Translations under genes and position numbers: made by a program
In this document: in pieces, positions 5,765 to 58,761 of the stretch
Layout: each line of letters opens with the position of its first letter
How positions within the stretch are numbered: position 1 is the stretch's first letter
Notes under the pieces: generated by a model
The model's database searches: none
Told to the model about the DNA's origin: nothing
The model's input: the letters and a program-made list of their open reading frames with translations, nothing else
Virus record (IMG/VR): IMGVR_UViG_3300032897_000001
Coordinates: 36,795 to 100,794 of that record
Reading direction: 5' to 3' (one strand)
From: a virus
DNA length: 64,000 nt

Positions 5765-6144
5765 CTGTCTATATCTCGAATGCGTTTAGTCTCAACATGC
5801 TTGACGGTGTTAAGCAGACACAGAGCAGCAAGCCTTTTGTTGCTTTTCTCAACCAAATGAGAACGAAAATAACAACGGATGGTTCTGAGATAAGTGTCCC
5901 CTGGCTTCCTGATGCAGAAGGGGAAATCGTGTCCATTGTCGGACATGAACAGAGTGCGGCGATTTTCTCCGCTATCCTTGGTAAAGAAGTGAAATTCAAC
6001 CGTCAGACTATTGTGCTCTCCCCCGGAGATACCCTCATTGTTGGGCAGTACACGGGTCCGCGACTTCCCAAGGGTGCCACAACACTGCCCGAAGGCGCCT
6101 CCATTGTGTGGTGGCGCGTATGTGAATTATCCGTTAACGATTGA
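5761..6144 (+). CDS. DUF1874 / AcrIII-1-like ring nuclease (anti-type III CRISPR), 127 aa
   Basis: The protein opens with VYISNAFSLNML and later has IVGHEQSAAIFSAILG (His62), NRQTIVLSPGDTLIVGQYTG and PRLPKGATTLPEGA. This is the signature of the DUF1874 (STIV B116-like) family. Family knowledge: AcrIII-1 members cleave cyclic tetra-adenylate, switching off type III CRISPR signalling, with a catalytic His in the GH motif. Here the His is kept and the Arg of RLP is present at 101, but the residue usually seen as Glu in RLPEG is Lys104, which might change activity. There is a longer than usual insert around residues 15-45. Start overlaps the previous stop (ATGA), placing it in the early operon where an anti-defence gene is useful. 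Confidence 0.85.
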   Translation: MTVYISNAFSLNMLDGVKQTQSSKPFVAFLNQMRTKITTDGSEISVPWLPDAEGEIVSIVGHEQSAAIFSAILGKEVKFNRQTIVLSPGDTLIVGQYTGPRLPKGATTLPEGASIVWWRVCELSVND

Positions 6145-41503: not shown

Positions 41504-42991
41504 CTACTCTGCCGCTTGGCGGAAAAGGCGCCGCGGTAACGGCGTTGATTGAGCCTTGGCATACGCCGCCGCGGCGGGTCCGAATTTGTATGTGAGCAAT
41601 TCAATCTGTTTTTCGGATGAAAAATATGCTTGGTGTGCCGCGTCTCGGAATTGAAGGATATCCGTGGGATTCAACTTGTCTGTTGGCAGAGGCTGAAAGT
41701 CCTCAGCATGCTGTGCATAGTTCCCCCACCGATCCGGAAGCGGCTGGCCTGTGCTCACAGCCTCATCATACAGCGGCGATCCGGGATATGCGGTCGCACA
41801 GTAGAAATTCGCCCAATCCGATCCGATAGCAAGCGCCATATCCAACGTCAGTTGCATGGATTCTGCGTCATCCTGTGGAAGTCCGAAGATGTAGTTTGCA
41901 ATGACGTTGATTCCCGCGGCTTGTATCCTGCCTACAATGTCCTTGATATCGTTTGTCCGTAAACGCTTTTCTGCACCATCCCTGACAGTCGGATCTGCCG
42001 ACTCAATGCCTAGAGCCAGCCACTTGATACCCGCCTTCCGAAGAAGTGGCAGTGTTCCTGCCCGGACTGTATCCACTCGGGCATATGCCCAAATATTCAA
42101 ATCAGTCCCAGCATTCGGAATTGTTTCGATAATCCGTTCGCAAATCTCACTGTAATGCCGTTCATTGAGAACGAACATTTCATCAATGATCTTGAACGTT
42201 CGCACACCGTATTGGGAATAAAGAAACTCTATTTCCTTAACGACATCTGCCGGATTGCGCATGCGATATCGTCGCACGCCGAATGGCGCATTGATGCAAC
42301 AGAACGAACACGAATAGGGACAACCCAGCGACGTGTAAATGCTTGCATATGGCTTGCGCCCGGTTTGATCATCCAGACACTGCCACCCGTGCGCACGATA
42401 CTTCTTCATTGGAAGAAGTTCCCACACATCACCGTGCAGTTTGGACAGATCTTCAATCAATGGCGCCCGGGCATTGATCCTAATGCGCGCACCATCACGC
42501 CAAACCAGTCCCGGAACATCTTCCAACGCGCTACCGGATAGAAGTCTACAAACAGTCTCCGGACCCTCCCCGACGCACACATAGTCAACGTGCTCACATT
42601 CGCGCATGGTTTGATTAGGCAGCGCCGAAACGTGTCCACCTACTACAAGGACTTTCGCTGCACACACGGATTTGATTTGGCGCGCCGTATCGTAAACAGC
42701 TTCCATTTGCTGCGTAGAAGCGGAAGGCTGGTGCCCATACGCGCACAAGCAGACAAGGCGCGTATCCCCCATGAAAAGATCTAACGCCACTTTTGATGGC
42801 GTTAGATTTTCTGCCTCAGCATCAACGATCTTTACAGTAAATCCGCGGTCCCGCACATAGCCGGCTATCAACCTTGCCCATAGTGGCGGCTCAGCCGCCG
42901 CATCATCTGCGACTACGCCATAACACGTAGCCCGTGCGTTAGGGTTGACGATAACTAGATGCGGGTCCAGACTAAATATTTCCGTGTTCAT
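41504..42991 (-). CDS. B12-binding radical SAM enzyme, 495 aa
   Basis: The N-terminal half has the cobalamin-binding Rossmann pattern with VLVVGGHVSALPNQTM. The radical SAM cluster is CPYSCSFC with Cys224, Cys228 and Cys231, then the C-terminal ribs ILQFRDAAHQAYFSSEKQI. It performs radical chemistry, commonly methylation or rearrangement of a sugar, nucleoside or antibiotic-like scaffold. Overlaps the epimerase gene by 20 bases. Confidence 0.88.
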   Translation of the reverse strand: MNTEIFSLDPHLVIVNPNARATCYGVVADDAAAEPPLWARLIAGYVRDRGFTVKIVDAEAENLTPSKVALDLFMGDTRLVCLCAYGHQPSASTQQMEAVYDTARQIKSVCAAKVLVVGGHVSALPNQTMRECEHVDYVCVGEGPETVCRLLSGSALEDVPGLVWRDGARIRINARAPLIEDLSKLHGDVWELLPMKKYRAHGWQCLDDQTGRKPYASIYTSLGCPYSCSFCCINAPFGVRRYRMRNPADVVKEIEFLYSQYGVRTFKIIDEMFVLNERHYSEICERIIETIPNAGTDLNIWAYARVDTVRAGTLPLLRKAGIKWLALGIESADPTVRDGAEKRLRTNDIKDIVGRIQAAGINVIANYIFGLPQDDAESMQLTLDMALAIGSDWANFYCATAYPGSPLYDEAVSTGQPLPDRWGNYAQHAEDFQPLPTDKLNPTDILQFRDAAHQAYFSSEKQIELLTYKFGPAAAAYAKAQSTPLPRRLFRQAAE

Positions 42992-43895
42992 GCTGCTTGA
43001 ACATCCGATATCCCTTGATCAGCTCAAGAATGCCGTGATCAAGCGAATATTTGGGACTCCAGCCGGTTGCCTCAATCTTGGTATTGGACACGATGTAGTC
43101 GCGCTTGTCCGGATCTTCCTTCCCTGCAATCTCTGCCCATGAAAACGGTGTGTGCGCCGCGATCCGCTCACATAGCTGTAGTTTCGTTAGGTTTGCATCC
43201 GACAAACCCACATTGTATATCTGCCCGCGCATTGTGTCCCAGTTCTTCAAAACATGCACGAACGCACATGCCGCATCCCGGACATGTATAAAGTTCCTGC
43301 GGAACCCTGCCTCGAAAAGCGTAATCGCCTGATCACGAACCGCGCGCAAAACAAAGTCATTGACAAGGAGATCCGTGCGCATTCGCGGGCTTATGCCGAA
43401 CAACGTCGCAAGCCGCAGACTTACGGCATTGCCACGGTTCATAATGATTCTTTCGGCTTCAACTTTTGTCTGACCATAGACACTCACCGGACGCAGCGGG
43501 GAATCTTCTGTGCACTCGCCATCTCCGCCAATGCCATAACCGCTGTTGGATATCGGGATAATGATAGGCTGCGTCGGTGCAAAATGTGCCAAGCTTTCGA
43601 TAGCCTCCACATTGACACCCCAAGCGGCTGCGGACTGTGTGTCGCACAGCGGCGCGCCAACCAAGGCAGCAAGAGGCATGATCACGTCTGCGTCACTTAA
43701 TACGGCACGCAGCAAACGCGTATCCCGCACGTCTCCCCGGTGGATTTGAAGGCGTTCGTTGGCACAGTGTGCCGCTAGGCTTGGTACGCCCCAGGAAAAG
43801 TCATCAAGAACGTCAACGTAGTGTCCTTCCGAGAGCAGTTTTCCGACAAGGACGCTACCTAAGTAGCCTGCTCCCCCGGTAACAAGAATCCTCAT
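42972..43895 (-). CDS. NAD(P)-dependent sugar epimerase/dehydratase, 307 aa
   Basis: N-terminal VTGGAGYLGSVLVGKLL (GxxGxxG dinucleotide site), ISNSGYGIG, then catalytic Tyr140 and Lys144 in VYGQTK. Extended short-chain reductase of the GalE/RmlB type. It would convert a nucleotide-sugar to a 4-keto or epimeric form. Ends at the start of the DegT-type gene. Confidence 0.85.
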   Translation of the reverse strand: MRILVTGGAGYLGSVLVGKLLSEGHYVDVLDDFSWGVPSLAAHCANERLQIHRGDVRDTRLLRAVLSDADVIMPLAALVGAPLCDTQSAAAWGVNVEAIESLAHFAPTQPIIIPISNSGYGIGGDGECTEDSPLRPVSVYGQTKVEAERIIMNRGNAVSLRLATLFGISPRMRTDLLVNDFVLRAVRDQAITLFEAGFRRNFIHVRDAACAFVHVLKNWDTMRGQIYNVGLSDANLTKLQLCERIAAHTPFSWAEIAGKEDPDKRDYIVSNTKIEATGWSPKYSLDHGILELIKGYRMFKQHEHGNI

Positions 43896-44995
43896 AGCAC
43901 ATCCCTCATCACGTCAATTGCCTTCTCAATCTGTTCTGACAGATCAAGCGGACCGTTCCCAAGGAACAAACCCATATCGTGGATTTGATCCGCGCGTGGT
44001 GTGGGGTATTTTGCCCAGGCGTTCCCGTAATGATGCTTATGCAGACTGCCACCAGTCGGCAACCGACAATCAATGCCAGCTTCGCGGAATTTCTTAACCA
44101 AGGTATCGCGAATGTACGGACTTCGTACTTCGAATTGAATCCCGAACGGACTCTGTGTTCCATTCGAGACCGGAAATTTCACCGGCAAATCTTCCGCCAT
44201 GTTTTGAAAGAGTGCCAAGTTCTGCCGGCGCTGTTCAATAAACTTTGGCAGCTTTTTAAGCTGTTCCCGGGCGACCGCCGCATGGATTTCCGTTGGACGA
44301 ACATTGTAACCCATCAGCCGGAAATCATATTCCTGCGAAAAAGCCTGCGGTTTCTGTACATCCCGTGTCCAGCCATGCGAACGCAGCATCCGACACAGCC
44401 GGGCGCACTCATCATCATTGGTAAGGATCACACCGCCTTCAATAGCGGACAGTTGATGTGACCAAAACAGCGAGAATGTATTCATCAGACCCCGTGTTCC
44501 ACAGAGTCTGCCTTTCAGATCAACTGCACCGATGGATTCACAGTTGTCTTCAATGATGGGCCAGGGCGCTTCTCCCCAAAAGTGGGCAGGATTCCCCAAG
44601 ACAGAGCACACGACTTGAAGGCTGATCGCGGGTTCCCCGTGGTATTGGCCCACGTTCCACTGGTCATTACAATCTGCAACAACCAACTCAAGTCCGTGCT
44701 GTACCAAAGGCGCATAAGTTGTCGCCCACGCAAGCGCGGGGACAACCACCTTATCACCCGGATGCAGCGGCCTTTCGCTCCGGTGGAACATCGCAGCAAC
44801 TGCGATCAAATTAGCCGATGAACCGGAATTCACCATGATAGCATGACGCTTCAAATGCCATGCCGCAAACTCCCGTTCGAATGCAGCGACTTCCTCGCCC
44901 AGCGTGAACCTGCCCGATGTGCGCACGCGATCAATCGCGCCGTGTTCTGCATCATCCCAGGCCGAATACGCTGTTGGAAAAAACCACTCTTTCAC
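43892..44995 (-). CDS. DegT-fold PMP-dependent 3-dehydratase-like enzyme, 367 aa
   Basis: LGEEVAAFEREFAAWHL, MVNSGSSANLIAVAAM and IIEDNCESIGA (Asp150 at the PLP N1 contact) define the DegT/DnrJ fold. At the Schiff-base position the usual Lys is His180 (NTFSLFWSHQLSAIEGG), a swap known from ColD and E1/RfbH-type 3-dehydratases. So this is more likely a C3 deoxygenating dehydratase than an aminotransferase. It makes 3-deoxy sugars from 4-keto-6-deoxy nucleotide sugars. Confidence 0.82.
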   Translation of the reverse strand: MKEWFFPTAYSAWDDAEHGAIDRVRTSGRFTLGEEVAAFEREFAAWHLKRHAIMVNSGSSANLIAVAAMFHRSERPLHPGDKVVVPALAWATTYAPLVQHGLELVVADCNDQWNVGQYHGEPAISLQVVCSVLGNPAHFWGEAPWPIIEDNCESIGAVDLKGRLCGTRGLMNTFSLFWSHQLSAIEGGVILTNDDECARLCRMLRSHGWTRDVQKPQAFSQEYDFRLMGYNVRPTEIHAAVAREQLKKLPKFIEQRRQNLALFQNMAEDLPVKFPVSNGTQSPFGIQFEVRSPYIRDTLVKKFREAGIDCRLPTGGSLHKHHYGNAWAKYPTPRADQIHDMGLFLGNGPLDLSEQIEKAIDVMRDVL

Positions 44996-45519
44996 GCAAA
45001 CTTCTCCGCCATTTCTACAAGGATCGTTGATACTTCACTCTTCAGTGCTTGTTCATATTGAACGAACACACCTTCCGCCGTATGCAGTTTGCATACATGC
45101 ACGGTGTACAGCATTTTCCGGACTTGGTCAGTGAAATCACCTAAGTGCTGCACTCCCGGATTCATCGGATCATCTGTTGCAACAGATGTCCTGATGATAA
45201 CCTTCGGTTTGTACCCACCACACGAATAAATGGGGAGTTTATCCAAGTGGTGTACAAGTTGGCTCATTGCCAATAGAAGGAAATTCCATCTCGGATAAAT
45301 GCACACAGGCAGCGCGCCGCGGAGTGCCAACCCAATGGCAACTCCCATCTGCATATCCTCTGCAACGGGAAACTCTATCCGTTTTTCCTTCGGAACATCC
45401 TGCAATGTTTGAAACATTGCGGTTCCTGGCACAGCGACGGCTTGCCCGATGAACACAGACTTAGGATGTTCTGCAAGCATCCTCATTGCCCGGCATAGTT
45501 CTGTTGCGTAATCAGTCAT
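44992..45519 (-). CDS. Thiamine-diphosphate enzyme, beta-type (pyrimidine domain) subunit, 175 aa
   Basis: PVAEDMQMGVAIGLALRGALP contains the Glu that activates the thiazolium, and CIYPRWNFLLLAMSQLVHHLD matches the transketolase/pyruvate dehydrogenase E1-beta pyrimidine domain. It is shorter than full E1-beta because the C-terminal transketolase domain is absent. Pairs with the alpha-type subunit gene 45684, one small gene away. Could add a two-carbon or acyl unit to a deoxysugar. Confidence 0.78.
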   Translation of the reverse strand: MTDYATELCRAMRMLAEHPKSVFIGQAVAVPGTAMFQTLQDVPKEKRIEFPVAEDMQMGVAIGLALRGALPVCIYPRWNFLLLAMSQLVHHLDKLPIYSCGGYKPKVIIRTSVATDDPMNPGVQHLGDFTDQVRKMLYTVHVCKLHTAEGVFVQYEQALKSEVSTILVEMAEKFA

Positions 45520-45677
45520 ATGCCGTCTGCCATACTGATCAAAATCGCGTTGTAAACAGCTTCCTTACCGCCCGAAGCTAACAACTCTTCAAATTTATTG
45601 ATCTGTTTGGCGTTAATTACAACGGTTCCCGGTTCTTCAGGAATCTTGTGTGGTTCTTCATTACGCAAGGACAACAC
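45516..45677 (-). CDS. Small protein between the two TPP-enzyme subunits, 53 aa
   Basis: GTG 45677 opens a frame that ends ATATGA overlapping the next ATG at 45519. RNEEPHKIPEEPGTVVINAK and INKFEELLASGGKEAVYNAI form a short strand-helix unit. The size and tight coupling suggest a small subunit or linker of the TPP enzyme. No homologue was recognised. Confidence 0.55.
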   Translation of the reverse strand: MLSLRNEEPHKIPEEPGTVVINAKQINKFEELLASGGKEAVYNAILISMADGI

Positions 45678-45683
45678 CCCGTT

Positions 45684-46289
45684 TTAGAACTGTACCCGCT
45701 TTCCCGCGCCCGAGTGTGGCCACGGCAGCACATAATCATATCGCATGACATGCGGCGAAAACCTGTTGGAAAAATCCGGTTTTCCCCATACCTGATCTGT
45801 GTCAGTACACACAGACTTCCCGTTGTCTTCGATGACAAAATTAACGGGCAATTCGTGTCCCTCCACATAACGCAGGCATTCATGAAACATGCCTGTGCGT
45901 GCAGTCATGTCGCCAACAAAAACCCAAACATATCCGGGTTGTCTTTCGCGCTGTAGCGACAATGCCAAGCCAACAGCGATCGGAAGCACGCCACCAACGA
46001 TCGCAGATGATAGGATGCGGTAATCCGGATAACACAGCGTGATGGAGCGTCCGGACAAGATGTCATCTCGCAGGAGTTCCGGGGGAACACCCTTAAGCAA
46101 GCAGTGATAATGTGAACGCCATTGTGTCAATACCCAGTCTTCTTCGTGGATATTGTCGAATATATTGATTAACTGTTTCTCGTTTCCCCCAGCCAAGTGA
46201 ACGGGCGCCCGGATCATTCCTGCATCAAAATCCGCAGCAACCAGTCGTTCAAACTCTTGCAGAGATTCGGCAGTGTGAGAAGTGATCAT
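45684..46289 (-). CDS. Thiamine-diphosphate enzyme, alpha-type (TPP) subunit, 201 aa
   Basis: Features of E1-alpha subunits: DNIHEEDWVLTQWRSHYHCL, SAIVGGVLPIAVGLALS, and the TPP/Mg motif VWVFVGDMTARTGMFHECL followed by LPVNFVIEDNG. It is truncated after the TPP domain compared with full E1-alpha. Together with 44992 it forms one split enzyme. It belongs to the sugar island. Confidence 0.8.
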   Translation of the reverse strand: MITSHTAESLQEFERLVAADFDAGMIRAPVHLAGGNEKQLINIFDNIHEEDWVLTQWRSHYHCLLKGVPPELLRDDILSGRSITLCYPDYRILSSAIVGGVLPIAVGLALSLQRERQPGYVWVFVGDMTARTGMFHECLRYVEGHELPVNFVIEDNGKSVCTDTDQVWGKPDFSNRFSPHVMRYDYVLPWPHSGAGKRVQF

Positions 46290-50010: not shown

Positions 50011-51009
50011 TTACGTAAGACGAATACGCGCGGCATCCGGAAACCGCTTCATGAAGTTACTGGATTCGCTACCGCCAGAATCGGCCGCGACCATTGCTGC
50101 ACGCGAATCCCGTTTCGCACCGGGCTTCGGCTGCATATTCAAGAGATGCGGCAACGCGCTGGGATGCACCTTGTCGATATTGCGTACACCACGCATCTTG
50201 AGTGCCTGCCGATAGACTTGCTCCGCAGAGTCAAACGACATATTCAACTGCCCAACCCAAGGCTGGACAAAGCGCTCTGCCTCACGAATATCCCGCTCAT
50301 TGCGTCGGACGGTCTCAGTAGAAGCGCGAAGCGCGGCTTCCATCTCTTCGCGGGTAACAGTATCCCCGGCCATCTTTCCACCGGTACGCGGCGAACCTCG
50401 AAACTTCATCGGCTGATCCGTTGCCTGCTTCCCCATGGAACCGCGGCGCCATTCCTTCTCATGATAAGGTTCTGTGATATCCGCAGCGCCCAGCTTCTCT
50501 AGTTGTGCCTCTCCCTCAGCATGATCGGGAGCCATTTCCTCTTCTTCTTCCTCTTCTTCTTCCTCTTCTTCGGCACCGCTGAGCATCCGCAATACGTGGT
50601 GCAAATCAGCTTCAGATAGCTTATCCTTTAGGAAACCCTCAACAGCCGACATCGGATCAGCGTCCATCACATCCGGCTCGGCAAACTTTTCGCCGATATC
50701 CTTGACAGGCTTTTCCATTTCTTCGGGCATTTCGTCATTCTCGTTAAGTGGATCGCCGTGCGCGTCCAACATGTCGAGAAATTCCGCGACTTCCCCAAGT
50801 GTAGTATCAATCGCAATCTTGCCGCGGCAAGCACGATCAATACGCCGAAGAATGTCACCCTTTTTTGAGCCGAAATTCTTTGCTGTAATATCGGCGAACA
50901 CAGGTAGCAAATTCAAACTGGCATCTTGTGCCAGTCGCGGGCGCAAAAACGCAGCCGTGGCGCACACAGCAATTGCGCCCTGACGCGTCAAACTATACTT
51001 GTTCTTCAT
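50011..51009 (-). CDS. Scaffolding-type protein with poly-Glu tract, 332 aa
   Basis: It is highly charged and helical, with a run of Glu near residues 148-158 and an MKFRGSPRTGGKMAGD segment. Between protease and cement genes, as capsid scaffolds usually are. MKNKYSLTRQGAIAVCATAAFL at the start is hydrophobic but lacks a clean cleavage site. No enzyme motif. Scaffold role inferred from context and composition. Confidence 0.65.
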   Translation of the reverse strand: MKNKYSLTRQGAIAVCATAAFLRPRLAQDASLNLLPVFADITAKNFGSKKGDILRRIDRACRGKIAIDTTLGEVAEFLDMLDAHGDPLNENDEMPEEMEKPVKDIGEKFAEPDVMDADPMSAVEGFLKDKLSEADLHHVLRMLSGAEEEEEEEEEEEEMAPDHAEGEAQLEKLGAADITEPYHEKEWRRGSMGKQATDQPMKFRGSPRTGGKMAGDTVTREEMEAALRASTETVRRNERDIREAERFVQPWVGQLNMSFDSAEQVYRQALKMRGVRNIDKVHPSALPHLLNMQPKPGAKRDSRAAMVAADSGGSESSNFMKRFPDAARIRLT

Positions 51010-51023
51010 CAGAACGTTCTCCT

Positions 51024-52586
51024 TTATTCGCCAACTGCTACGTCAGCACCTGCCCTACCTTCTTTCACTAGGGCGACGTGATTTCCATGGATGTTTCGCA
51101 TAACGCCATCATACCTCTGTCCCTCGTGTGTGCCTGGCGTCATGTCTGGATCATAGTGATAGCCACACGAGATTTCTTTCTGCTCTCCGGCTTCTATGCG
51201 AGATATAGCGTCGCCATCCCACACACGAAGACTGTTGCGAAGATACGGCGCCTGAAACACCGCATCGGAGCCTGTTGTCCCGACAACAAATTGTTTGGAA
51301 GTTTCTGCATAATCTTCCGCAAACACAGGAACATGTTTGCTCAACAGCGGAAGATTATTGAAGGTGTCTGCGGCCTTTTTCAATTCCACAGGATCACGAA
51401 GAAGTTGATAAACTTGGTTTGGGTTTAACTTCAACTGCTCATATCCTGGGATTTCTCTGCCAATATAAGGACAAATGTTTGCTTTGCTGATATTGGTTAT
51501 CTCTACAATCAAATGTCCGTCTTGCGTTTTTTCCCGGACCGACGCACGATCAAAGGCCAGCCTATCATCCCCAGCTAACCTAGCTTCTATCGCCTCTCCC
51601 CGCTTATCGTATCTGTGCCCGTCAACCTTGCTCACACCCACCGCACACCAATCATTGGCATCAAGCGGCGCCACCACTTTTTCGCATTCATTCTCACCGC
51701 GAAAAGCCTTGCACGTGCCGCAGCGATCGCGGCCTTTTGCAGGGCGGAAATCCACGGCTTCATGCGAAAGTTTGGCTGTGTCCTTGCCCACATCAGCAAC
51801 AGATTCCTGCACTTCCTCCGAGGAAGGTTTCGCGGGTTCCGGTTCTTTGTCCGTGTCGCCCTGTCCTAACATCCCCGTAGCAGGGAAATAGTCCGATTCC
51901 TTCCAGTCGTCTGCGGCACCCAACTTCCTGCTATAAAAAGCATCCATTGTCGTTGTGTTGAACCGCCGTGCCTTGGAAGACTCCTTAAGTGCGCCACGAA
52001 CACCACCACGGGAAAACGATTCATTAATCGCACGGTGATTCCCGCCCAACAACGGCTCCGGTGGATATTTGATAGTATCGCGAAGCTGTCTCTTAGAAGC
52101 TGTGTTTGCGGCCATTTCATCCAACGCAATCTTAGATAATGTCTTAGCTAATCCCGGGTGTAACGGGGAAGGTGGTGCATCAACTGGCGCCCACATATAG
52201 CTTGTGTGTTCTTCATTCAACTTGGGAGTACAAGCACGGCGAATGCTGACACGGTATGTGCGATAATCAATGCCTTCGGGATTGGCGCTGTGGTCAATCT
52301 CTTCTGGCAGTCTCTCGCGTTCTTTCAAAACAAAACCCGTTTCCTCTCGCAACTCCCGTATAACGGCTGCAAGAGGCGTTTCCCCGAGTTCCACCTTACC
52401 CCCGGGGATGCTCCACTCCCCCGGATGATCACCTATTGCGCTGCGCTTTACAAAAAGGACTTTATCATCGGGTGTCGTCAACAAGACGCCCGCAGCATGT
52501 ACAAGTTTATCTTGTGCGCTCTGCCGACGCTTCCCCAGGGGGATGGCGCTGTTTGGTGACAACGCCATTCCAAGCATTTGAGCCAT
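51024..52586 (-). CDS. Nudix hydrolase fused to DUF2213 prohead protease, 520 aa
   Basis: Residues 28-150 carry a complete Nudix box (G63 to F85: [10 protein letters not shown] then Arg77-Glu78, Glu81-Glu82, Gly84). Near residues 282-310 four Cys ([13 protein letters not shown] and WCAVG) form a likely metal- or cluster-binding knot. The last 180 residues match DUF2213: [63 protein letters not shown]. Proheads need such a protease. The Nudix part would hydrolyse a nucleoside diphosphate derivative, possibly a defence signal. Confidence 0.85.
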
Positions 52587-55522: not shown

Positions 55523-55852
55523 TTATTTGGACTTCTTCTTTTTGGGCAGTTTGCCGCCCGGGTCCGCGGACGCAAATTCCTCGCCAACACTCTTTGGAAT
55601 GCCCAAATTTGAATGCCCACTTTTCGCGGCGAACATGGCGCGGCGCTGTGCTTCTGACACAGGCGGATCAGTTGCCATTCTTCGTTTGTCCTTGGCAGGT
55701 TTGCGCCGTGCTCCGGCAGACGCATACCAAAGGATTCCGGCTTCCTTGGCGGCACGTTTGGCCGCTTCGTATCCCTGTTCCTGATAAATCTTGTCGATTT
55801 CCTCGCGGGAAACTGCCGCATCAGCAGCCATTCGGCCAAATCGTCCTGCCAT
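55523..55852 (-). CDS. Small basic protein with N-terminal GR motif, 109 aa
   Basis: MAGRFGRMAADAAVSREEID, EGYEAAKRAAKEAGILWYAS, then Lys-rich PGGKLPKKKKSK at the end. Basic C-terminus suggests DNA contact inside the head. Precedes the portal's end; adjacent gene follows without spacer. Confidence 0.62.
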   Translation of the reverse strand: MAGRFGRMAADAAVSREEIDKIYQEQGYEAAKRAAKEAGILWYASAGARRKPAKDKRRMATDPPVSEAQRRAMFAAKSGHSNLGIPKSVGEEFASADPGGKLPKKKKSK

Positions 55853-55863
55853 CTAAATCCCCT

Positions 55864-58761
55864 TTATTCGTCCGGATCGCTGCCAGCAACCTGTTCCGTG
55901 TTGCCACGCAACAGTGCCGCTGTTGTCTTGAGAATGCGCACCTTGCCCGGCGCGTCGCCTTTTTGGAGGAAGGTTTTCAAATCAAGTTCATGGTCCGCTG
56001 GCTGCCCTGCCTTTACCCACGAAGCAATAAGCCGTTCGCCCCTATGATGCGTGACAACACCCACGACTTCCCCTGGGTGTTCTTCCGCGATATCTGCGAG
56101 CCCGCCAAAGAACCGCGTCTTGAAGTCAAGGAATGATTCACCTTCTGGAACATTTTCTGTTGGTCTCTCACGAACATATTCGGCGATTTCCGGCAAAGCC
56201 TCTTTTGTCGTCTGCCCGGTAAATCTGCCCAAGTTCCACGGACGCAGGGTCTTCGTTATGATCGGTGTGAGTTCTAATTCCTCACCGATCATAACCGCTG
56301 TCTCCGCCGCGCGTATTAAATCGGAACTGTACAGCGCAACCAGATCATAATCCTGCAGTTCTTCCGCTGTTTCCTCAGCCTGATCGCGGCCTTCGCTCGT
56401 CAAGGGTACATCAAGCCATGCTCGAATACGATCCACCGACGTGTCAGTATCGTCATTCATTTTCGTTGCACCGTGGCGCACGACTACAAACACGGTTCGT
56501 TCGTCCACAGCGGAATCCTTTGCGGGCGCGGTCTTTGGTTCGTCCGGCGCTACTTGCGAATCCCTTTCTTGCTGAATCAACCCTCGCAGACGTGTCCGCT
56601 CACTTTCAGTTCCGGAAACACGGGGATTGCCCGAAATCTTTGCAGGCGATTTGCTTTTAACAGCCTCAACACCACTTCCGCCACCACCTTCCTTCTTCGC
56701 AAACTTTCCCGACTTATCCCGCTTGTGTTTGGATTCCTCAAATTTGCGAGCATCCCGGGCAAACGGCGGGTCTCTGTCTTCATCCGGACTCTTGTCATGG
56801 GTTGAAATATCAATGCCACCAGTGCCAAGCAGTGCTTCTGACCATTTATCGTCGGCACCAATGGCACCCTTGGCACCGATCCGCCGCTTTAGATAGTCGC
56901 GACCTTGCTCTGAGCGTACATCAGCCCGGTCATAGAAGTCGCCTTCCCTGCGAAGGTGTCGGGCATTACGTGCGGCAATGCGCTTTTGCCACGGACCCGG
57001 ATCAACCTTGCCACTGCCTCCAAGCAAGCTTTCCTGAATGGCAGAATCTTCTTCTTCCTCTTCTTCCTCGGGTTCGTGGTCTTCGTGATCCTCACGTCCC
57101 CCGGGCGCCGCAAATGCCTCCCCCTGCTCATTAGAAGGCTGTGGATGCGGCGGACGCCCGGTCCTGGCACCTTTGCCCGCCCGCGGATCAAGTCCCGCCT
57201 CTTCCTCTTCTCGCAGGTCCGGAACATCTTCAACGTCAATCGACGCATAAGGCGAATCCGGGTCCGCTGCCACCTTCTTACGGACTTCCTCGGGAGTAAG
57301 TACCCCTGAATCAATCAGGGACACATCTGTACGTGCTTCTACCTCCCGCTTATCTGCTTCGGCCTTTTCGTCCAATGCCCACAGCGGCTCAAACACAAAC
57401 GTAATTTCGTTATCGACTTCCCCCCACAAGGAAATCATCACGAAATCAATAACCGTCGTGAGTTGCGCGCGCATGCGCTTTTCTTGCGACGCAGCAACCC
57501 AGTCATAGAACATCCGAATGCCGCCTTCATCACTGGCATTCAGACCCGTTGGTTGAATGCCTAGAAGCTTGACAATCGGTATCCCACTGACAGACGCGAG
57601 ATGTTCCTGCGTCTGCGCTTGGAGTTGTTCTAGCCCTCCCAGCGGCGCTGACACATTGCTTAGTTCTTCGGTCTCCTTATTGACAACCATCATGCCGCGG
57701 TTGTCGCGCATGACGTTGAACAAATCGACACGTTTGAAGAGCAAATCGCCGCCGTCTTCCAATGACGTTCCCAAGTCTGTCTTGAGGACAAACACGGAGA
57801 ACGCATGAATCAGGTCCGCGACCGATTGCCGGGTCCGTAGCCAATTATCAACATACGGCTTTGACATCTGCGTCATGGACAACCCGCCGAACGAATACGC
57901 GGGTTTGAGCAGATCTGGGACTTCCCGACCGACAAACTTCAAGAGGCGCGAGGCGTGAACCTCCTTGCCCATTACAAACCATGTTTCAGGTTCATACCAA
58001 TTGTCGGATAGTGGATCATCAGCATTGTAGGATGTCGGATAGACCCAGACAGGTTCCACCGGACGCAGAACCCGCAACGAACCTTTGCCGACTTTTGTCC
58101 TACTGACGTTATCCCGACCATTGCCTATTGACGTTTTTAATTCGTCGCGATCCTCAGTGGCTCCGGTGTCAATGTAGAGATGTGCGCGGCCGAACAATTC
58201 ATCTAATTCGATACAACGTCGAAACGCGTCGCGCGCACGAAGATTGTCCAGGGCGTCAACAATTTGTTTTATCTTATCGGACTTGTCCCTGTCCCCGACC
58301 GACTGCAAGCGTATCCACTTGCGCGTCATCTCTGTAGCAAGGATTTCGGCAAACCGCCGAAACTCGGCACGCTGTGCCTGTTCCGCTAATGCTGTATAGC
58401 CGGGGAACGCCAACCCTTCCGCAAAGATCGCGGAGAATGCCGAACCTCTGTTCCACTCCCCACTGGCCCACGAAAAACCATCGTCCATGGCCATTTGTGC
58501 GCCCTTTGGTGGACGCGCTGCAGGCGGAAACTCAGGAAGCGCAAAGGGATTTGTCCGGGACTTGTTGCCGCCGCTTCGTGCACGTAAAAGCGCGGCTTCT
58601 GTCACTCTAACTGCTTGCTGCTCTGCTGTCTCCTTTGTAAACCCATTAGCAAAGCTGTCCGTTGCAATCTGCGCACGACGGAACATGCGGCGCGCCCTTT
58701 CAAAGGCTGCATCGCGTACACGCTTCCACCAAGAATCTTTCTTCGGATTGGGAGCAAGCAT
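55864..58761 (-). CDS. Portal protein (DUF1073-like) fused to a C-terminal histidine phosphatase, 965 aa
   Basis: Residues about 90-500 are the portal: FSAIFAEGLAFPGYTALAEQ, EMTRKWIRLQSVGD, SRLLKFVGREVPDLLKPAY, SFGGLSMTQMSKPYVDNW, SGIPIVKLLGIQPTGLNAS. An acidic, flexible stretch (about 540-600) and a basic DKSGKFAKKEGGGGSG linker follow. From about 755 VFVVVRHGATKMNDD (RHG catalytic His), LYSSDLIRAAETA, and VGVVTHHRGERLI (second His near 907) form a complete phosphoglycerate-mutase-like fold. Family knowledge: DUF1073 portals in other phages can carry a C-terminal Acb1 domain. The HP domain may act on a nucleotide or phosphoester. Confidence 0.86.
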   Translation of the reverse strand: MLAPNPKKDSWWKRVRDAAFERARRMFRRAQIATDSFANGFTKETAEQQAVRVTEAALLRARSGGNKSRTNPFALPEFPPAARPPKGAQMAMDDGFSWASGEWNRGSAFSAIFAEGLAFPGYTALAEQAQRAEFRRFAEILATEMTRKWIRLQSVGDRDKSDKIKQIVDALDNLRARDAFRRCIELDELFGRAHLYIDTGATEDRDELKTSIGNGRDNVSRTKVGKGSLRVLRPVEPVWVYPTSYNADDPLSDNWYEPETWFVMGKEVHASRLLKFVGREVPDLLKPAYSFGGLSMTQMSKPYVDNWLRTRQSVADLIHAFSVFVLKTDLGTSLEDGGDLLFKRVDLFNVMRDNRGMMVVNKETEELSNVSAPLGGLEQLQAQTQEHLASVSGIPIVKLLGIQPTGLNASDEGGIRMFYDWVAASQEKRMRAQLTTVIDFVMISLWGEVDNEITFVFEPLWALDEKAEADKREVEARTDVSLIDSGVLTPEEVRKKVAADPDSPYASIDVEDVPDLREEEEAGLDPRAGKGARTGRPPHPQPSNEQGEAFAAPGGREDHEDHEPEEEEEEEDSAIQESLLGGSGKVDPGPWQKRIAARNARHLRREGDFYDRADVRSEQGRDYLKRRIGAKGAIGADDKWSEALLGTGGIDISTHDKSPDEDRDPPFARDARKFEESKHKRDKSGKFAKKEGGGGSGVEAVKSKSPAKISGNPRVSGTESERTRLRGLIQQERDSQVAPDEPKTAPAKDSAVDERTVFVVVRHGATKMNDDTDTSVDRIRAWLDVPLTSEGRDQAEETAEELQDYDLVALYSSDLIRAAETAVMIGEELELTPIITKTLRPWNLGRFTGQTTKEALPEIAEYVRERPTENVPEGESFLDFKTRFFGGLADIAEEHPGEVVGVVTHHRGERLIASWVKAGQPADHELDLKTFLQKGDAPGKVRILKTTAALLRGNTEQVAGSDPDE

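Follow-up and report, generated by a model that had tools for sequence, protein, structure and literature searches.

A HiPIP-like domain fused with a Nudix domain to a phage head-maturation protease, and related HiPIP-like domains across phages

Results

We report a phage protein in which a Nudix domain, a unit of four Cys residues and a DUF2213 head-maturation protease domain share one chain, and in which the four-Cys unit is well supported as a HiPIP-like domain, that is, one resembling the high-potential iron-sulfur proteins of bacteria. The HiPIP-like identity of this unit is the new element here, and such domains are common in phages, where they seem to be undescribed. The gene lies in a 64,000-nucleotide window (positions 36795-100794 of a 100,794-base IMG/VR-type virus record) and encodes 520 residues. 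The first-pass annotation had placed the three parts in one chain without naming a strand; we confirm the arrangement on the minus strand, where the ORF runs unbroken from its ATG start (51024..52586, read from 52586 to 51024), and the plus-strand frame over 51024-52586 is full of stops.

Four Cys residues had been noted near residues 282-310, and four are indeed present, at positions 289, 292, 301 and 314 and so not bounded by 282-310, within a domain spanning residues 272-320 (51627..51773, minus strand). Their description as a 'four-Cys knot' had missed the HiPIP-like identity of what is the unusual part of the protein. A degenerate DNA pattern for the four Cys occurs once in the window and in none of 100 dinucleotide-preserving shuffles. 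In the PDB, the four-Cys piece matches best to PioC, a HiPIP with identical Cys spacing (E 2e-7), and this stretch also has a weak, sub-threshold match (8.1e-4) to the NCBIfam iron oxidase (Iro) model. The PDB search gave two further matches, both to repetitive SAKe-series proteins for which no single stretch scores alone. An AlphaFold model of the domain (pLDDT 83.7, pTM 0.65; 79-row alignment) was compared with known structures, and 17 of the 18 Foldseek matches were HiPIPs, led by PioC (probability 1.00, TM 0.68/0.76). VIA-align gave Z values of 6.9 for PioC (rmsd 2.1, 53 residues), 6.9 for 1isu and 6.7 for 3h31, which are modest alone, with every row displayed being a HiPIP.

With the PioC/Iro branch of HiPIPs (PDB 6xyv, Pfam PF01355, NCBIfam NF041615) the window domain shares the spacing C-x2-C-x8-C-x12-C, the model fold and an aromatic residue before the first Cys; it differs in lying inside a multidomain phage protein, in having no export signal, and in that its cluster is predicted only. 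It also draws no Pfam match at E <= 10, and hence none to HIPIP, for which reason we call it HiPIP-like. What we take to be the PROSITE-type HiPIP signature, C-x(6,9)-[LIVM]-x(3)-G-[YW]-C-x(2)-[FYW], is fitted by 52 of the 79 A3 rows among the matches listed (truncated L186 being left out of A3), and the window copy fails it, the Gly and the aromatic residue being missing. The closest HiPIP relative among the matches listed (G001; 54% identity over 67 aa) departs from the signature in the same two ways, which favours a lineage variant over decay. Judged by residue pattern and modelled fold, the domain probably binds a [4Fe-4S] cluster. A four-Cys iron-sulfur cluster has been described in another virion protein, the siphophage tail hub (PMC10276861), where it belongs to a split domain and is likened to ours by its Cys cluster, not by sequence.

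The pattern C-x2-C-x2-aromatic-x5-C-x2-V-x3-[ILV]-x4-W-C, searched at the DNA level, occurs in at least 119 stretches of the viral collection and at least 123 times in bacterial genomes; both totals are lower bounds, and the rates of the two collections are not comparable. Four viral matches (L111, L150, L172, L187) were excluded as chance before the counts were made. Our profile, which was built partly from the same sequences and so is not independent, is fitted by 115 of the 119 viral matches listed and by 94 of the bacterial ones listed, and independent support for the HiPIP assignment comes from the Pfam, PDB and fold results. Pfam HIPIP was matched at E <= 0.1 by 54 of 79 phage pieces among the matches listed, each of the 19 other families listed matching one or two; a zinc knuckle or ribbon was rejected on the same scan, since zinc families accounted for one or two pieces each. 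Conservation extends to positions outside the search pattern, with Tyr/Phe kept in 78, Gly in 70 and an aromatic residue after the last Cys in 76 of the 79 pieces.

Most of these phage domains stand alone. Among the matches listed, we assembled 118 viral HiPIP ORFs by leaving out the four chance matches and L095 and adding the earlier loci L036, L064 and L079 (L036 and L064 share contigs with pattern loci L139 and L098); 69 of the 118 are at most 135 aa long, 11 fall in the range 136-300 aa and the remaining 38 exceed it. Fusions to DUF2213 are found in the window, L036, L103, L123 (with the HiPIP C-terminal) and L190, and fusions to portal proteins in L064 (with InPase), L079 (with Nudix and ADP-ribosyltransferase), L158 and L149. 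Another head-maturation protease (L203) and a phrog_5939 tail protein (L130) complete the fusion partners. The L079 protein (L079:240-5132) is a 1631-aa portal protein carrying the HiPIP, a Nudix and an ADP-ribosyltransferase exoenzyme domain. The domain is N-terminal in L130:1207-2592, the remainder of which matches phrog_5939, and we grouped ORFs of L108, L110, L113, L124, L134 and L135 with it by eye as N-terminally HiPIP-like; the one in L124 gave no Pfam match on scanning. L036:6564-9425 has an extra domain between HiPIP and DUF2213 (residues about 255-475) that looks kinase-like by eye and has no Pfam match.

In L084, a phage with a Nudix-DUF2213 fusion, the HiPIP is a separate gene (Pfam HIPIP, 24.1 bits against a cut-off of 22), and a named isolate, Synechococcus phage S-SRM01, encodes one as gp061. 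A weaker match (E 5) falls at the C-terminus of the capsid maturation protease of Actinomycetia phage DSL-LC01; Gordonia phage matches at the same E value were set aside as chance, being to MuF-like and neighbouring proteins without the domain. Holin (Microbacterium) and tape-measure matches also came up in the search for relatives. PHROGs held no HiPIP family for the ten proteins we ran against it, nine having no convincing match and the tenth matching only through its phosphatase, and we found no paper on phage-encoded HiPIPs in the open-access literature. Across 50 HiPIP records among the matches listed, DUF2213 is present in only three, making the protease fusion a minority form, and Nudix is present in none, so that Nudix is an optional partner of the HiPIP, as in L036, L079 and L084, which hold both. 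Among 125 neighbour ORFs, PHROG tallies gave modest head-gene counts (terminase 5, 2, 2, 2; portal 4, 2).

In phototrophic and iron-oxidising bacteria, HiPIPs are known to carry electrons in the periplasm. Among the matches listed, 77 of 84 short cellular HiPIP ORFs show a Tat-type signal, with an RR-like motif plus a hydrophobic N-terminal stretch, against three of 71 short viral ORFs with a hydrophobic stretch and one with an RR-like motif. The domain in the window has no Tat-type export signal and is internal to its chain. Since export signals are rare on the viral copies, phage HiPIPs are not, in any simple sense, their hosts' exported electron carriers.

A different kind of N-terminal signal appears on part of the viral set. 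T4 internal proteins IPII and IPIII start MKTYQEFIAE, and 25 of 72 short viral HiPIP ORFs among the matches listed start in the same style, one of them with MKSYQEFIAE; elsewhere in those 25 stretches the start motif occurs in two other ORFs only, both in L168. In T4 the first 10 residues are sufficient for packaging, with positions 4 and 7 serving targeting and 8 and 10 processing (PMC9026906), and PMC3012670 describes the T4 internal proteins as defending against enzymes of the host. Near-identity of the first ten residues thus likens the stand-alone cyanophage-type HiPIPs to IPII and IPIII; the window protein has no T4-type capsid-targeting sequence at its start, and there the protease itself would carry the cargo. 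One similarity cluster, of cyanophage type, holds 22 of the 118 HiPIP ORFs, and because most of the T4-style HiPIPs fall in it we count them as one to three events.

The identity of the Nudix domain is firm. Pfam NUDIX (PF00293) matches residues 30-150 (52137..52499, minus strand) at 3.3e-19, with 69.7 bits against a cut-off of 21.1, and the modelled domain has a MutT-type fold (pLDDT 89.9, pTM 0.82). The Nudix box earlier called perfect, at residues 63-85 (52332..52400, minus strand), is an exact match, and the five catalytic positions we checked in it (G, R, E, E, E) show no variation across 19 of 19 Nudix domains. By sequence and structure, the window Nudix comes nearest to proteins of the MutT, MutT2, RppH and Ap4A/Ap6A types, and the best NCBIfam rows are MutT types, none of them reaching an equivalog cut-off; T4 NudE is 40% identical over 60 aa. 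We tried to fix the substrate by sequence or structure and failed, the structural Z values (14.7-17.9) being nearly tied across many substrate classes, with ADP-ribose-binding NrtR among the tied matches. The suggestion that ADP-ribose, NAD or an alarmone is the specific substrate is accordingly unsupported, and the MutT-like matches do not favour ADP-ribose. In mycobacterial MutT1, a Nudix domain and a histidine phosphatase domain occur together, and the MutT1 model has weak matches to the window Nudix and to the phosphatase of the window's portal protein (see below), which is a lead towards nucleotide sanitation and no test of it.

The identity of the DUF2213 domain is equally firm (residues 351-519; 51030..51536, minus strand), as matches to Pfam DUF2213 (7.9e-49) and to the head maturation protease family phrog_2229 (1.9e-90) uphold the protease assignment of the first pass. 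In an alignment, the columns holding His418, Ser473 and His503 do not vary across any of 11 DUF2213 domains; we take these to be the catalytic residues by analogy with assemblins, and their invariance is consistent with an active assemblin-like protease. The C-terminally fused scaffold usual after DUF2213 is absent. Instead, the fusion gene ends right after DUF2213, and a separate scaffold gene (50011..51009, minus strand), which matches the C-terminal half of phrog_2229 (205-426 of 428), lies 14 bases on with its own AAAGGAG ribosome-binding site. The Nudix-DUF2213 fusions of L006/L007 and L012 likewise have their scaffold encoded by a gene of its own. Like the window protein, gp24 of Pseudomonas phage Pa193 (PMC11042391; PDB 9b40, going by the entry's molecule name) has a DUF2213 domain with conserved His and Ser and is encoded between portal and major head protein; the window differs by its separate scaffold gene and by the two cargo domains ahead of the protease. 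Pa193 gp24 is treated as a putative scaffold in that paper, and the word protease is absent from its text as available.

To place the fusion among its relatives, we compared 89 DUF2213 loci from IMG/VR picked by similarity to the window DUF2213 (the best 80 of 581 plus 12 from another search, less three duplicate contigs). A comparison of this kind had been suggested at the outset, and the N-terminal Nudix fusion does recur: Nudix precedes DUF2213 in the same ORF at 18 of the 89 loci (16 once near-identical pairs are merged). It lies in another ORF at two, on a portal C-terminus in L010 and stand-alone in L009, and was not found at the remaining 69 within the stretch examined per locus. A whole-protein search of the 'phages' collection matched 696 records, none covering >=80% of the protein and the best 60 covering the DUF2213 part only, and a scan with the N-terminal 342 residues as sole query found no relative.

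Related architectures are in print. NUDIX with DUF2213 is among the Pfam architectures in PMC8770471, and Iyer and co-workers (2022, PMC9503650) described Nudix domains fused to MuF, portal and capsid-processing serine peptidase proteins and proposed that they are packaged and injected; thus neither the joining of Nudix to the protease nor the view of it as injected counter-defence cargo is new. The window protein resembles those fusions in that a Nudix is joined to a head protein, with packaging and injection as the proposed fate. It differs in its HiPIP-like domain, no HiPIP being mentioned in the portions of that paper available, and in that its Nudix scores best with MutT-type proteins, whereas most phage Nudix domains there fall in the NudE or NadM clades. 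With polyvalent proteins (Iyer and co-workers 2017, PMC5512222) it shares several enzymatic domains on a head-linked chain and assemblin-like peptidase domains; it is smaller, and the term 'iron-sulfur' occurs 0 times in the available text of that paper.

The portal protein of the window (Phage_portal_3; 55864..58761, minus strand) had also been put down as a fusion, and the C-terminal addition proves to be a histidine phosphatase, Pfam His_Phos_1, at residues 759-917 (56011..56487, minus strand). Over 185 aa, this domain shares 48% identity with the stand-alone phosphatase that neighbours the closest HiPIP relative (G001). HiPIP and histidine phosphatase are linked in four genomes among the matches listed, the window included. 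In the window, the HiPIP is on the protease and the phosphatase on the portal of one head cluster; three of the 50 HiPIP records among the matches listed have His_Phos_1 close to the HiPIP, either within its ORF or in one near it (gaps 277, 1041 and 196 bases). In G001 the phosphatase gene is adjacent to the HiPIP among non-head genes; in G025 the two share an ORF between small-terminase-like and large-terminase-like genes; and in G019 the phosphatase lies between the HiPIP and terminase-like and portal-like genes, the gene names in these last two being read from translations. The proximity gives a product of about 1.4e-4, a rough and post hoc figure that is uncorrected for the choice of the phosphatase.

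Several further features of these head regions were noted. A linker at portal residue 675, EESKHKRDKSGKF, stands ahead of the phosphatase. The linker F-x-E-(S/G)-(D/K)-HPR-x-x-x-G-K-F-(G/A) recurs in 16 head-region ORFs, one with three copies (loci L009, L010, L016, L036, L039, L040, L056, L057, L061, L065, L068, L079, L084 and L086), and may be a cleavage or docking signal. Between portal and protease, the motif PPVSEAQRRAM.AA..G.S.LGIP.SVG.EF is found in the window (55523-55852, minus strand), L036, L103 and L190, either as its own gene or ahead of cargo domains. Beside the head genes, window 41504-46289 (minus strand) encodes, as judged by eye, a radical-SAM enzyme, an epimerase, an aminotransferase and two transketolase-like halves, which may together make up a sugar-modification cluster. 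The DUF1874 protein mentioned in the first pass is present as well, at about window 5902-6048 (plus strand; Pfam PF08960, 31.9 bits, over cut-off). The DUF1874 (STIV_B116-like) family includes anti-CRISPR ring nucleases.

Discussion

These results support the fusion itself and its likely association with the virion, as the first-pass annotation had proposed, and we chart from them a model to which we give about an even chance, in which the protein is a cargo-carrying head-maturation protease whose Nudix and HiPIP modules are packaged, freed and delivered into the host together with the phosphatase. DUF2213 would act as an assemblin-like serine protease inside the prohead, and the MutT-type Nudix and HiPIP-like modules would ride in attached to it, to be released by self-cleavage at maturation. 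Once freed, the modules would stay beside the DNA in the capsid and pass with it into the next host, as would the portal-fused phosphatase. There the Nudix could hydrolyse a compound of the nucleoside di- or triphosphate type, and the phosphatase could strip phosphate from what results or from a related compound; the HiPIP could serve as a one-electron redox module or a cluster-stabilised adaptor. We infer cluster binding, self-cleavage, packaging, delivery, redox function and all substrates in this model, and for the packaging of cargo we draw on the fusion partners, the T4-type N-termini and the printed precedent. With its HiPIP and phosphatase among non-head genes, G001 indicates that packaging would not be universal.

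Extending the model beyond this protein, we tentatively suggest that phages may possess a large and as yet undescribed class of HiPIPs without export signals. These would enter the head either by themselves or attached to proteases and portals, would be injected as redox proteins, and would work alongside a dedicated histidine phosphatase and, in some cases, a Nudix enzyme.

It seems to us rather unlikely that the protein only repeats a known theme, its Nudix being head-packaged counter-defence against NAD/ADP-ribose signals and its four-Cys domain an inert spacer. Iyer and co-workers (PMC9503650) give the same Nudix fusions with that interpretation, the Nudix catalytic residues are invariant (19/19), and an ADP-ribosyltransferase and a Nudix sit on one portal protein in L079. 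However, an inert spacer fits poorly with a four-Cys domain that is kept in more than 100 viral stretches, often alone, and the Nudix is nearer the MutT, RppH and ApnA types, yet with NrtR among its tied structural matches.

A structural role for the four-Cys domain, as a zinc- or Fe-S-stabilised assembly adaptor with no redox function, through which cargo or protease would dock on the portal or scaffold, is in our judgement unlikely. It would suit a domain found joined to portals, to two families of head protease and to a phrog_5939 tail protein, and the splitting of scaffold from protease in the window, L006/L007 and L012 could call for another docking part; the four-Cys cluster of the siphophage tail hub (PMC10276861) offers a parallel. 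Against it, the stand-alone copies bear a T4-type targeting sequence of their own, the G001 copy is away from head genes, and the residues other than Cys follow HiPIPs and not zinc knuckles.

We think it improbable that the cargo domains act only late in the producing cell, for example in cleaning oxidised nucleotides, and are discarded at maturation. The MutT-like fold, the weak matches of the MutT1 model to both window parts, and the HiPIP and phosphatase among the non-head genes of G001 all point that way, but such a role leaves the fusions to head proteins and the T4-type targeting N-termini unexplained. Mis-assembly of unrelated genes, conceivable for a metagenomic IMG/VR-type record that is not an isolate, is very improbable given Nudix-DUF2213 fusions at 18 of 89 loci, DUF2213-HiPIP fusions in four other contigs and frames open throughout.

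Returning to the proposed cargo-carrying protease, phage HiPIPs that have no export signals, are tied to head proteins and in some cases carry T4-type targeting sequences suggest delivery of iron-sulfur proteins into the cell. The HiPIP identity provides a testable label for unannotated phage genes, for which PHROGs had no family among those tested. It also ties a portal-borne phosphatase to the proposed HiPIP cargo, and it makes what enters the host with the DNA directly testable.
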